Shown: piece by piece, positions 28,542-37,195 of the stretch
How the letters are laid out: every line of letters begins with the position of its first letter
How positions within the stretch are numbered: the stretch's first letter is position 1
NCBI RefSeq assembly: GCF_030718085.1
Contig: NZ_JAVAJF010000002.1
Coordinates: 310,001-374,000 of the forward strand
Source: Marinobacter sp. MDS2
Lineage (GTDB): Bacteria > Pseudomonadota > Gammaproteobacteria > Pseudomonadales > Oleiphilaceae
Reading direction: 5' to 3'
DNA: 64,000 nucleotides
Notes under the pieces: generated by a model
Told to the model about the DNA's origin: nothing
Seen by the model: only the letters and a program-made list of their open reading frames with translations
Databases searched by the model: none
Made by a program: the position numbers and the translations under genes

Positions 28542-28647
28542 GGGCTGGAGGGGCGGCGTTCCGAAAACCGCTACAAGCACGTCCGTGTGCGCTTCTCTTC
28601 GGCCATCCATGGCCTACGACATTTTCGGAACGCCGCCCCTCCAGCCC
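28542..28647. repeat. 26-bp perfect inverted repeat between liuA and liuB
   Basis: Arms at 28542-28567 and 28622-28647 are perfectly complementary over 26 bp (GC-rich, ending in CCGAAAA/TTTTCGG). They enclose 54 nt that contain a second palindrome GGCCATCCATGGCC and a CACG/CGTG pair. It lies within the liu transcript, 35 nt before liuA ends and 29 nt before liuB begins. Likely an extragenic repeat element, possibly affecting relative liuA/liuB expression. Confidence 0.85.
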
Positions 28648-30343: not shown

Positions 30344-30375
30344 TCTCGTGAGATTTTTTCTTAGGTTAGTTGAAG

Positions 30376-30391
30376 TTTACGTTAACGTAAA
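30376..30391. promoter_or_regulatory. LiuR operator upstream of liuR
   Basis: TTTACGTTAACGTAAA, a perfect 16-bp palindrome 33 bp before the liuR start. The identical sequence stands at 31624-31639. Its position is suited to autoregulation of the liu operon. Confidence 0.88.
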
Positions 30392-31506: not shown

Positions 31507-31623
31507 GTTCCACCTCTTTTGTTTATTGTTGTTTCTGCGAGAAAAGTCATTCCAGCTCCTTACGTTATTGGTTGTGTTAGGACTAAAGCGGGAGTTGTTT
31601 CCGGCGCTGGATTCGGGTTAATG

Positions 31624-31639
31624 TTTACGTTAACGTAAA
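31624..31639. promoter_or_regulatory. LiuR operator between pseudogene and SDR operon
   Basis: TTTACGTTAACGTAAA, identical to the liuR operator; with one more base on each side it is an 18-bp perfect palindrome. It lies in the divergent spacer, 79 bp before the SDR ATG and 118 bp before the pseudogene ATG, so it could control both directions. Confidence 0.88.
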
Positions 31640-33651: not shown

Positions 33652-33676
33652 GGGCGTTCTGTTGGTTGGGTTTGGG

Positions 33677-33790
33677 CTCCTAGCCTTTGAGGTGTGCGGG
33701 CGGGTACGCGGGGTATGGGGTGTTTTTCTTCTGGGAAAAATAACTCGCTTCGCTCAGACATCTTTTTCCCTGCCAGAAAAGCACCCCACA
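33677..33790 (+). repeat. Extragenic hairpin repeat, copy A
   Basis: A CTCCTAGCCT box, a GCGGGCGGG box, then a long stem: TGGGGTGTTTTTCT (33717) pairs with AGAAAAGCACCCCA (33775), and GGGAAAAA (33733) with TTTTTCCC (33763). The apical 22-nt loop (33741-33762, core CTCGCTTCGCTCAG) is identical in reverse complement to that of copy C. Confidence 0.85.
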
Positions 33791-33860
33791 CCCCCCCTAC
33801 CGACGGGCAGCACAGGAATAGTAAATTTTCCGGTGAACCCGCCAATGCCCGTCGGCGCGG

Positions 33861-33957
33861 GGTGGTCTTTTCATTTTTTGCCAGAAAATGATGTCTGAGC
33901 GAAGCGAGTTCTTTTTCAAAAAAAATGAAAAGGCCAGCGCGCAAGCCCGCCCGCACA
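33861..33957 (-). repeat. Extragenic hairpin repeat, copy B
   Basis: Opposite orientation to copy A. It has the same loop core (33890-33910, CTGAGCGAAGCGAG) but different arms: CTTTTCATTTTTTG (33867-33880) pairs with CAAAAAAAATGAAAAG (33917-33932), allowing a small bulge. The GCGGGCGGG box lies at the far right in complement. Confidence 0.82.
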
Positions 33958-34060
33958 ACAGGAAGTCTGGGAGCGGAAATCGGGCCTGACGAACAATGAA
34001 TGAGCTATTGATCAGGTTTTGTTAGCCGAATTTTATTCATTACTAAGGAGAACAACACTC

Positions 34061-35239
34061 ATGAACAACGATGTCGTAATAGCAGGCTCGGCTCGAACAC
34101 CGATGGGCGGCATGATGGGCTCTTTGAGCTCAGTACGTTCCCCTGAACTGGGCGCTATCTCCATCAAGGCGGCCATTGAACGGTCCGGATTGCAGCCGGC
34201 CGATATTCAGGAAGTGATCATGGGGTGCGTGCTGCCGGGTGGGTTGGGGCAGGCTCCTGCGCGCCAGGCTTCTCGTGCTTCTGGCATTCCGGATAGCTCG
34301 GGCTGCACCACCATCAACAAAATGTGCGGCTCAGGTATGCAGGCCGTGATCATGGCTCACGACCAAATCAAAGCCGGCACCAACAACTTCATGATTGCTG
34401 GCGGCATGGAGAACATGAGCCAGGCACCATACCTGTTGCCCAAAGCCCGCGCAGGTATGCGCATGGGGCATGGTCAGGTGATGGACAGCATGTTCCTGGA
34501 TGGTCTGGAAGACGCCTATGAAGGTGGTCTGATGGGCGTATTCGCCCAGCGCACGGCCGATAAGTTCAACATCACTCGCGAAAACATGGACGCGTTTGCG
34601 ATCGGGTCACTGCAGAAAGCGTTGGCCGCAATTGAGAATGGCTGGTTCCGCGATGAGATTACGTCGGTTACTGTCTCTGGCCGCGGCGGTGATACCGAAG
34701 TGGATACGGATGAACAGCCCGGTAATGCCAAGCCGGAGAAAATTCCCCATCTGAAGCCTGCGTTTGCCAAAGATGGCTCGGTAACGGCAGCGAATTCCAG
34801 TTCTATCAGTGACGGTGCGTCTGCGTTGGTGCTGGCTTCGTCGGCTGAAGCCGAGGCACGTGGCCTGACACCTCAAGCCCGGATTGTCGCCCATGCAACC
34901 CATGCGCGGTTGCCCGCTGAATTTACCTTGGCGCCGATTGGTTCTATCGAAAAGGTGCTGGCGAAAGCAGGCTGGAGCGTAGACGACGTTGATCTATTTG
35001 AAATCAACGAAGCCTTTGCGGTGGTTACGCTGGCGGCGATCAACGAGCTGAATCTGCCGGCCGAAAAGGTCAACGTTCACGGCGGCGCTTGTGCACTGGG
35101 GCATCCGATTGGGTCTTCCGGTTCCCGCATTCTGATCACCTTGATCAATGCACTGAAACAGCGTGGCCTCAAGCGTGGTGTGGCATCACTGTGTATTGGT
35201 GGTGGCGAAGGAACGGCCGTAGCGGTTGAGCTGATTTAA
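34061..35239 (+). CDS. Acetyl-CoA acyltransferase (thiolase)
   Basis: A 392-residue thiolase: nucleophile Cys89 in INKMCGSGMQAV, His348 in CALGHPIGSSG and Cys378 in LCIGGGEG are all present. It cleaves or forms acetoacetyl-CoA or 2-methylacetoacetyl-CoA. After the SDR and acyl-CoA dehydrogenase it fits the last step of isoleucine degradation or the use of acetoacetyl-CoA. The ATG at 34061 has AAGGAG 10 nt upstream; the in-frame ATG at 34019 adds 14 atypical residues. The 409-bp spacer suggests its own promoter. Confidence 0.94.
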   Translation: MNNDVVIAGSARTPMGGMMGSLSSVRSPELGAISIKAAIERSGLQPADIQEVIMGCVLPGGLGQAPARQASRASGIPDSSGCTTINKMCGSGMQAVIMAHDQIKAGTNNFMIAGGMENMSQAPYLLPKARAGMRMGHGQVMDSMFLDGLEDAYEGGLMGVFAQRTADKFNITRENMDAFAIGSLQKALAAIENGWFRDEITSVTVSGRGGDTEVDTDEQPGNAKPEKIPHLKPAFAKDGSVTAANSSSISDGASALVLASSAEAEARGLTPQARIVAHATHARLPAEFTLAPIGSIEKVLAKAGWSVDDVDLFEINEAFAVVTLAAINELNLPAEKVNVHGGACALGHPIGSSGSRILITLINALKQRGLKRGVASLCIGGGEGTAVAVELI

Positions 35240-35246
35240 AGAAGAG

Positions 35247-35273
35247 TGGCCGGACGCAGGACACGTCCGGCCA
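35247..35273. terminator. Terminator between convergent thiolase and ilvD
   Basis: TGGCCGGACG and CGTCCGGCCA form a perfect 10-bp stem with a 7-nt loop, 8 bp after the thiolase stop and 16 bp from the ilvD stop. T/A runs are short on both sides, but its position makes termination likely. Confidence 0.75.
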
Positions 35274-35288
35274 TTTAGCCGTGCAGGG

Positions 35289-36965
35289 TTACGGCAGGTC
35301 AGTGACTGCGCCGGTAGACGCTGAACTCACCGTCCGGGCGTATTTCGCCAACACACCGCGAGTGACTCTGGGCTCTGGCGCCTTCCAGGCCTTGCGCCGT
35401 TTCTCCATTTCTTCTTCAGGGATCTCCAGAACAATGGAGTTGTTTACCGCATCAATGGTGATGGTGTCGCCTTCCTCCACCAATGCGATTGGGCCACCGA
35501 CCGCGGCTTCCGGAGTGATGTGCCCGACCACGAAACCGTGGCTACCACCTGAAAAGCGACCATCGGTAATCAACGCCACATCACTGCCCAAACCGCGGCC
35601 CATAATGGCCGAAGTGGGGCTTAGCATTTCACGCATACCCGGGCCGCCTTTGGGGCCTTCGTAACGGATAACCAGCACATCCCCGGCAACGACGCTGCCA
35701 TCCAGAATGCGTTCTTGGGCTTCCTCTTCGGAATGAAACACCCGCGCCCGGCCTGAGAAGTGCGTGCCTTCTTTACCGGTGATTTTCGCCACCGAGCCTT
35801 CCGGTGCCAGGTTGCCATACAAAATGCGCAGATGGCTGTCGGCTTTCACCGGATTCTCGAAGGCCCGGATAATCTGCTGATCTTCGGGGTAAGGTGTGAC
35901 GCTTGCCAGGTTCTCCGCCAGTGTTTTCCCCGTCACCGTCATGCAATCGCCGTGCAGCATACCGCGATCCAACAGCATCTTCATGAGCGGCTGAATACCG
36001 CCAATGGCCACCAGCTCAGACATCATGTAATGGCCTGACGGGCGCAGATCAGCGAGCACAGGAACGTTTTTGCCGATCCGGACAAAGTCATCCAAAGACA
36101 ACTCAACACCCACCGTACTCGCCATACCTAATAAGTGCAGCACGGCATTGGTGGAGCCGCCCAAAGTAATCACCACGGTGATGGCGTTCTCAAAGGCTTC
36201 GCGCGTCATGATGTCCGACGGTTTGATGTCTGCGTCCAGCAGTTTCAAAACCGCTTCGCCGGCCGCTTCACAGTCAGCCAGTTTGTTGTTGGACACTGCG
36301 TTTTGGGCCGAGCTGCCTGGCAAACTCATCCCCATGGCCTCAATTGCCGAGGCCATGGTATTCGCGGTGTACATACCGCCACAGGACCCGGCCCCGGGAA
36401 TCGCCGTTTCCTCGATCTGCTTCACCTCAATCAGATCCATCTTGCCCTGAGCGTGTGCACCCACCGCTTCAAAAACAGAAATAATGTCGGTGTGATTCTC
36501 GCCCGGCTGAATCGTCCCGCCATAGACAAACACCGACGGCCGGTTCAATCGCGCCAGCCCCATTAAACAGCCGGGCATGTTTTTGTCACACCCGCCAATG
36601 GCCACCAGCCCGTCAAAACCTTCACAACCGGCCACCGTCTCAATGGAATCTGCAATCACCTCCCGGGAAACCAGAGAATACTTCATACCCTCCGTCCCGT
36701 TGGCGATCCCGTCTGACACCGTGATGGTATTAAAAATCAAACTCTTACCACCGGCCTGATCCGCCCCCTTGGCAGCCTCACGGGCCAGCCCGTCAATGTG
36801 CATATTACAAGGCGTAAGATTGCTCCAGGTAGAAGCAATCCCGATCTGAGGCTTCCGAAAATCCGCATCCTCAAACCCCACAGCCCGCAACATAGCCCGG
36901 CTGGCAGACTTATTGATGCCATCTACCACCGGTGCAGAATAGCGACGACGTTTATCCGTAGCCAT
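35289..36965 (-). CDS. ilvD: Dihydroxy-acid dehydratase
   Basis: A 558-residue Fe-S dehydratase that makes 2-oxoisovalerate and 2-oxo-3-methylvalerate from the dihydroxy acids, the shared third step of Val/Ile synthesis. Cluster ligands are visible: Cys53 (NLTPCNMH), Cys126 ([10 protein letters not shown]) and Cys195 ([10 protein letters not shown]). The length of about 560 is that of the shorter IlvD group, commonly [2Fe-2S]. The ATG at 36965 has AAGGA 8 nt upstream; the ATG at 36974 lies in that site. It follows ilvM after 247 bp containing hairpin repeat C. Confidence 0.96.
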
Positions 36966-37075
36966 GAACCCCATCCTTATAAGTTAGAAATCGAAAACGG
37001 TAGACACCAGAGAACACCACATAGCAACCAAGTGCAACCGTCCACCACGGCCTATCCCCAAAAGGTCCGCCGGTA

Positions 37076-37195
37076 GCGGGGGGCGGAGTCATTTTCTGAC
37101 AGGGAAAAAGATGTCTGAGCGAAGCGAGTTATTTTTCCCAGAAGAAAATGACTCCGCACCCCGCAAACCCGCCCCCAAAACCAACAGGCTAGGGA
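37076..37195 (-). repeat. Extragenic hairpin repeat, copy C, between ilvM and ilvD
   Basis: A perfect 15-bp outer stem GCGGAGTCATTTTCT (37083-37097) with AGAAAATGACTCCGC (37143-37157), extended by a further GC pairing outside. The inner stem is GGGAAAAA (37102-37109) with TTTTTCCC (37132-37139), and the 22-nt loop (37110-37131) is the exact complement of copy A. AGGCTAGGGA at the right end corresponds to the CTCCTAGCCT box of copy A. Confidence 0.88.

Follow-up and report, generated by a model that had tools for sequence, protein, structure and literature searches.

A dispersed palindromic DNA element of Marinobacter and other bacteria, apparently constrained at its apical tip rather than at its ends

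Hairpins with a near-invariant loop and self-matching arms recur in the genome of Marinobacter sp. MDS2 and in genomes of several bacterial phyla; they occur as doublets, turn over at one site among relatives, and invert in place. Three of them, hairpins A, B and C, lie in the stretch of 64,000 nt analysed here (the window; contig NZ_JAVAJF010000002.1, positions 310,001 to 374,000), and all that is strongly conserved in them is an apical motif of 18 nt, GTYYGAGCGNAGCGAGTT, which we call the tip or cap1. We give about an even chance to the reading that A, B and C represent a palindromic element of non-coding DNA, dispersed and constrained from the inside out, whose folded tip is read in trans. 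A dispersed palindromic repeat that is constrained at its tip rather than at its ends, with arms probably matched by template switching, is apparently new: the titles and abstracts of the literature searched held no description of the hairpin motif, and the papers in which the 12-mer GAGCGAAGCGAG occurs are, judged by title, on eukaryotic subjects.

Hairpin A (33710..33794, minus strand) was delimited from its fold and its inverted-repeat pairs. It has a long stem with an internal loop, and its apical motif, GTCTGAGCGAAGCGAGTT, was matched by pattern on the minus strand at 33742..33759. Hairpins B (33857..33942, plus strand) and C (37076..37164, plus strand) were found as inverted repeats that fold, with pattern matches to the apical motif at 33893..33910 (+) and 37113..37130 (+), respectively. 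The arms of the window hairpins are about 30 bp long. A and B stand head to head, and imperfect terminal inverted repeats of 34 nt (33671-33704 and 33946-33979, 76 percent) led us to propose 33671..33979 as the extent of this doublet. A 3' tail of C, ending in GGCTA, occupies 37159..37191 (+); it remains in a relative, G079, from which hairpin C has been deleted. Exact matches to the 14-nt core CTGAGCGAAGCGAG lie at 33744-33757 (-), 33895-33908 (+) and 37115-37128 (+); with up to two mismatches allowed, the core matched the window five times, against a mean of 0.67 in shuffles. The first-pass annotation had described a three-copy hairpin family with a near-invariant apical loop; an exact 21-nt apical sequence is indeed common to A, B and C, as is GATGTCTGAGCGAAGCGAGTT, and the outer stems it quoted for each copy are present. 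It had also put the identity between A and C, in opposite orientation, at 22 nt. The identity stands, and the length was too low, as our own count on the alignment gave 49 nt. Folding energies compared with shuffles gave z scores of -4.2, -1.6 and -5.9 for A, B and C as RNA and of -4.7, -3.9 and -10.6 as DNA; for B as RNA, 13 of 200 shuffles folded equally well.

Ten copies were found in the MDS2 genome (3.45 Mb, 10 contigs), nine of them exact and one with a single mismatch in the 17-nt core, and the reversed pattern gave none. An eleventh match (L011) has two mismatches and, by inspection, no matching arms. The 17-nt core was present in 98 of 124 Marinobacter genomes, with up to 21 copies in each, and its control in none. 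The first-pass annotation had made its family depend on further copies in the genome or in relatives, and there are thus many more of both. In a sample of the order, the core was found in 15 of 293 genomes (4 of 281 outside the genus), and in a sample of Pseudomonadota the 18-nt core was found in 9 of 398 genomes, three of which were Marinobacter. A scan of GTDB genomes for the exact 21-mer returned at least 118 stretches, at least 37 of them outside Marinobacter. Among the matches listed, it caps unrelated stems in other Pseudomonadota (Undibacterium, other Oxalobacteraceae and Burkholderiales, Wenzhouxiangella, Salinisphaera and Pseudomonas neustonica), in Bacillota and Desulfobacterota (Desulfuromonadales, Acidaminococcaceae, Phascolarctobacterium, Blautia, Eisenbergiella, Mogibacterium and other Clostridia), in Bacteroidota (Parabacteroides, Bacteroides and Bacteroidales) and in a metagenome-assembled genome (MAG) of Stahlbacteria; folding showed that most of these non-Marinobacter 21-mers top hairpins with entirely different stems. 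Because several carriers are MAGs, single records could be misbinned. The strain genomes of Parabacteroides goldsteinii and Undibacterium hunanense carry it, with at most one mismatch, in 16 and 18 places, respectively. In a Bacillota sample, GTYTGAGCGNAGCGAGTT was found in 14 of 398 genomes at 108 places (our own sum of the table), and two of the Bacillota copies (L443 and L444) retain the G+C-rich tip on A+T-rich arms.

The variation that the tip does show is unevenly placed. We collected 322 copies with unique arms, of which 279 passed an arm-pairing filter, and 212 of the 279 carry the exact 18-mer. The remaining copies have 75 loop substitutions: 39 at position 10, where all four bases were found, 19 at position 3, seven at position 9, five at position 4 and five elsewhere. 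Positions Y3 and N10 thus hold 58 of the 75, and ten positions are unchanged in every copy; the copies share ancestry, so these counts are not independent, and the matching weighs all positions alike. We propose that the tip folds into a GNA triloop (G9-N10-A11) closed by two G-C pairs (G7-C13 and C8-G12), below which would lie tandem sheared G.A pairs (G5.A15 and A6.G14), a bulge of two pyrimidines (Y3Y4), and the pairs T2.G16 and G1.T17. The substitution hot spots fit the positions expected to be free under this fold, and changes of G9 to A do not fit it. DNA hairpins of the type GC(GNA)GC are unusually stable for any N, with a melting temperature of 78 C for GCGAAGC, according to the part of the source available to us (PMC4686876); the element's tip likewise contains GCGNAGC with N free. 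In that part of the source, the d(GCGNAGC) mini-hairpin appears as a stable oligonucleotide and a component of aptamers, whereas a role for it in the present repeat is our own suggestion. Among short perfect hairpins in 159 regions 3' of non-Marinobacter cores, read on the core strand, GNA triloops numbered 21, against 2.8 in mononucleotide shuffles, and the complementary triloop type 11 against 4.8; other loop types exceeded the shuffles as well, four-base loops most of all.

In most copies the two arms match. Among 191 Marinobacter copies, 178 had own-arm complementarity above the 95th percentile for swapped arms, as had 97 of 131 others; after reduction to independent stem classes, no arm paired better than the copy's own in 29 of 31 classes from Marinobacter and in 32 of 48 from elsewhere. 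In Marinobacter and other copies alike, the median distance of the first internal loop from the core is 10 nt, and the 5' side of this loop is the larger one in 89 of 151 and 66 of 113 copies, respectively. In Eisenbergiella, the arms reach up to about 130 nt and their inner 40 nt are common to the copies. Between 80 and 130 nt from the loop, the left arms of the 17 unique Eisenbergiella copies are no more alike than swapped arms are paired (both mean 9.0), and the outer arms are far more self-complementary than that in 16 of 17 copies, up to 50/50.

Eleven comparisons between orthologs at nine loci (1160 paired positions) gave 21 compensated double changes, one uncompensated double change and 74 single changes, so that one arm is often matched to the other, though by no means at once. 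At one locus, read in three relatives, a five-base block is found in three states, with AAAAA mismatched opposite GTCCC, with both arms of one type, or with both of the other. Similarly, where copy B in the window has the tract CTTTTCA, two relatives have TGTTGGA and a third TGTTGGG, and the opposite arm is altered correspondingly. The hairpin is inverted in place at two of nine Eisenbergiella loci, and the doublet stands in the order A-B in three relatives, as in the window, and in the order B-A in three others. Homogenisation of arms and inversion of the spacer are marks of template switching during replication, which yields arm matching without selection on structure, as described in the portions of two reports available to us (PMC8604942, PMC8794818). 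Covariation alone is therefore not evidence of a selected structure. The first-pass annotation had taken compensatory changes in the stems to imply selection on structure; the stems do covary, but matching in blocks and inversion in place make that step insecure, and selection is better sought in the apex, and possibly in the internal loop, than in the arms. The inverted repeats of those reports, so far as these portions go, resemble ours in arm homogenisation, spacer inversion and multi-base compensatory changes; they are unrelated loci, whereas here one spacer sequence recurs in many palindromes.

With gene contexts resting on mechanical calls of open reading frames (ORFs), the 150 Marinobacter copies in a clear context lie between convergent (64), codirectional (80) or divergent (6) genes; of all 191, eight are within an ORF and 33 were unclassified. 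The corresponding numbers for the 131 other copies are 34, 55 and 4, with 23 within an ORF and 15 unclassified. All 31 Marinobacter pairs less than 450 nt apart are oriented (-,+), as are 13 of 19 elsewhere. Both the extragenic location and the inverted doublet that the first-pass annotation had reported are borne out. Single Marinobacter copies between codirectional genes are antisense more often than sense (35 to 13, p 0.002, uncorrected for ancestry), and doublet copies in such places are balanced (15 and 17). Among 256 ORFs that flank non-Marinobacter copies, clustering gave no clear common neighbour: the largest cluster, of seven loci, came from a single genome (L268 and others, G794), and the rest were small, with two to four loci each and in part across taxa (L164/L241/L301/L305, L079/L275, L043/L090 and L152/L318).

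In the window, the doublet A/B is flanked by acyl-CoA dehydrogenase and thiolase genes according to Pfam, and we read this interval in 22 relatives. It is only 8-31 bp long and without a hairpin in 11, holds a cap1 doublet in six, a hairpin with another cap (cap2, below) in four and a degenerate remnant in one, and in several relatives a doublet lies directly after the thiolase gene. Copy C stands between an ILVD_EDD dehydratase gene (dihydroxy-acid dehydratase) and genes for an ACT-domain protein and a thiamine pyrophosphate enzyme; from their Pfam names, these may be ilvD-, ilvN- and ilvB-like. Its absence in G079 is a deletion between CCCC repeats with the tail left behind. To judge by these two cases, such sites gain, lose and swap hairpins. 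We looked for a clean empty site at the acyl-CoA dehydrogenase-thiolase interval as well, and the empty forms were too diverged to fix its boundaries.

How might such an element persist? When a strand becomes single during replication or transfer, the hairpin would form and the apical motif would fold into its compact tip, which a putative trans-acting enzyme would recognise, thereby spreading or maintaining the element; the tip would be constant across phyla because that enzyme recognises it. The arms would be largely free in sequence, with template switching copying one arm onto the other, and for this reason they could diverge between copies and hosts and stay self-complementary; the same process would flip the loop, and any effects on neighbouring genes would be secondary. 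An enzyme reading the folded single-stranded tip seems the most economical reading, and the tip is more likely read as single-stranded DNA than as RNA. A bolder version, which we hold tentatively and as possible rather than probable, is that the tip, as single-stranded DNA, takes up a compact non-canonical fold that one widespread enzyme processing such DNA reads in several phyla. The element would then amount to hardly more than this tip with any palindrome, its arms built and constantly rewritten from local DNA by template switching, and the tip would capture or generate a new palindrome at each site. What is inherited in such a mobile element would be a folded loop.

A number of results weigh against the element as we read it. 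Single uncompensated changes (74) outnumber compensated ones (21), and 34 of the 131 non-Marinobacter copies fail the arm test, with Parabacteroides, Blautia and viral copies among the lowest scorers. The reversed control in the Bacillota sample was not empty, at 8 places in 5 genomes compared with 108 in 14. The DNA parameters of ViennaRNA give the GNA triloop no bonus, and the strand bias of single copies is not required of a pure DNA element. No transposition event was caught among the relatives compared, and what BLAST coordinates had suggested to be a clean empty site at the C locus of G079 was really a deletion scar. As to the enzyme, no recogniser was found. The Y1 transposase domain PF01797 occurs in only 63 of 124 Marinobacter genomes, and neither P. 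goldsteinii nor Eisenbergiella G408, both rich in copies, has a match to it. No cap1 core lies nearby in L221, a divergent relative, or in the 43 other Y1 loci that we read.

The hairpin could instead act at the level of RNA, stabilising, ending or processing mRNA after transcription, with a conserved RNA-binding protein or RNase reading the loop. The intergenic placement, mostly at gene 3' ends and seldom between divergent genes, the strong RNA folds of A and C, and the strand bias of single copies would suit this, but both orientations are found, doublets are balanced and hairpins invert in place. Moreover, by inspection, no T-run follows A or C; a terminator scan, which allows loops of 3-8 nt, called nothing at either and, at the base of B, no more than short hairpins, and Rfam 15 gave no match in the window at its gathering threshold. 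We therefore consider an RNA-level role rather unlikely. A self-acting motif, a ribozyme or deoxyribozyme, would account for a conserved core on interchangeable helices and for the scatter across phyla with no need for a conserved host factor. However, the motif is very small, and Rfam, which had no match at its gathering threshold in the window, gave only sub-threshold matches to miRNA, sRNA and snoRNA families at eight related loci; we hold such an activity to be very improbable. It is also conceivable, though we think it quite unlikely, that the conserved tip enters existing palindromes or nucleates new ones out of local DNA, an inverted duplication of the flank growing with every insertion. 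The Eisenbergiella arms 80-130 nt out, which differ between copies and are self-complementary in 16 of 17, speak for this; against it, the inner 40 nt are common to the copies, arm ends coincide in three aligned relatives, and no one-armed relative was found among those compared.

The remaining alternative is mobilisation by an IS200-like Y1 transposase of the RAYT type (repetitive extragenic palindrome (REP)-associated tyrosine transposase), the hairpin being a REPIN, a REP doublet that forms a hairpin, with a GTAG-type tail as its recognised end. The first-pass annotation had called the family possibly REPIN-like. Of 184 Marinobacter copies, 69 have a GGCTA tail, usually some 50 nt 3' of the loop; in controls, 9 and 7 of 162 have it. 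The base that follows the tail is C in 35, G in 26, A in 6 and T in 2, and on the opposite strand the tail reads GTAG or CTAG, as in GTAG REPs. The invariably (-,+) Marinobacter doublets point the same way, and a Y1 gene of the MNYRR type has a hairpin on one or both sides in seven of nine genomes fetched. RAYT became a candidate mobiliser through a Y1 gene lying between two cores in one genome. But the flanked genes represent one orthologous locus, and at the two of these loci read closely the RAYT's own GTAG REP, GTAGGTCGGATTA, sits between it and the hairpins. As that REP intervenes and the other Y1 loci have no cores, we now keep RAYT only as a rival, and an unlikely one. At L211 (2150-3800) and L215 (2150-2500), a RAYT-like Y1 gene lies beside GTAGGTCGGATTA...TAATCCGACA repeats, apparently that transposase's own Marinobacter REP family. 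Outside the genus, PF01797 was found in 14 of 25 genomes with the hairpin; in a second set of 12, which overlaps the first by two genomes, five had it. The window, on contig C2, has no Y1 transposase, and the genome's sole PF01797 match is on contig C1, in agreement with the first-pass annotation, which had seen no RAYT in the window.

The element was compared with known repeat systems as described in the portions of the sources available to us. REPINs and GTAG REPs with their RAYT (PMC3116915, PMC3733652) are likewise extragenic palindromes with inverted doublets and compensatory changes in mid-element, and the GTAG-type end of about a third of the Marinobacter copies may be a further likeness. 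In contrast, a REPIN has invariant ends and a variable spacer (PMC3116915, PMC3733652), whereas our element has a constant centre between variable arms; with the constraint at the centre and no cognate RAYT found, we do not count the element as an established REPIN, although its doublets are inverted as in REPINs. The stem of a GTAG REP is 5-13 bp and its loop 2-20 nt (PMC3733652), so that our arms are longer and the 18-nt loop is within range. The cognate RAYT of a REP or REPIN adjoins copies, whereas here one does so at one Marinobacter locus only, with another REP nearer to it; the same tip across phyla is a further difference from REP families. TIRtrons and TIRYT repeats, for example the self-complementary 1152 family of S. 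maltophilia (PMC3733652), were compared by description; TIRYT repeats flank a RAYT-like gene, which our hairpin does at one Marinobacter locus only among the Y1 loci read. CGTC REPs share head-to-head dimers, the lack of a dedicated transposase and a presence in several phyla, but have stems of 8-9 bp and loops of 4-5 nt (PMC3733652), compared with our 18-nt loop. We rejected that family, as the CGTCGG head was found in only 21 of 163 Marinobacter and none of 116 other copies.

A second cap, cap2 (GAGCGTACANNGANGTATTNACAGCG, at most one mismatch), is borne on the same kind of arms as cap1. It was found in 115 of 124 Marinobacter genomes, with up to 45 copies (control none), eight of them in the MDS2 genome. 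The two caps resemble each other as GAGCG...AGCG. We considered whether cap2 is cap1 with two hairpins inserted at its two variable positions, and rejected this, as AGCGAGT follows the cap in only 2 of the 35 cap2 copies read; most of the 35 have AGCGTG there. A fourth hairpin of the window, D (28542..28647, minus strand), has perfect arms of 26 nt and a different cap, and lies between two genes of an acyl-CoA pathway region. Its cap resembles cap2, which is not an independent test because the window pattern was drawn to include D, and its relation to A-C is uncertain. Elsewhere in the window, an ORF is flanked by near-identical copies of GTTTACGTTAACGTAAA (30369-30391 and 31617-31639), possibly a pair of candidate operators for a nearby gene that, from reading alone, we take to be of the MerR type.

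Carriage by phages or plasmids was considered and set aside: the A/B region had no match in the phage collection and one among plasmids, a Marinobacter plasmid, and of six viral stretches with a 19-mer match (L281-L286) several have no good hairpin. Three of the viral stretches, all of a single metagenome, have AAGACCCTAGATGTCTGAGCGAAGCGAGTT in common and no more than a short stem, so that the tip may exist in phages without the long hairpin. An 8-kb stretch of Pseudomonas neustonica (L178) holds five of the loop hairpins, amid ORF fragments of other repeated hairpins. At L287-L306 (G794 and G405), short repeats such as GGCTTTGGCTTT or GCTTTTGACGTT precede several copies, and a motif like TTTTGGTTACTTTT follows several.

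For bacterial hairpins in general, the element is a concrete warning that covariation is by itself no proof of RNA function. Since it provides many natural palindromes with one and the same centre, arm homogenisation and loop inversion can be tracked between close relatives. The constraint runs from the inside out, with a tip common to several phyla and arms that are largely disposable, and this raises the question of which protein or replication step reads GTYYGAGCGNAGCGAGTT.

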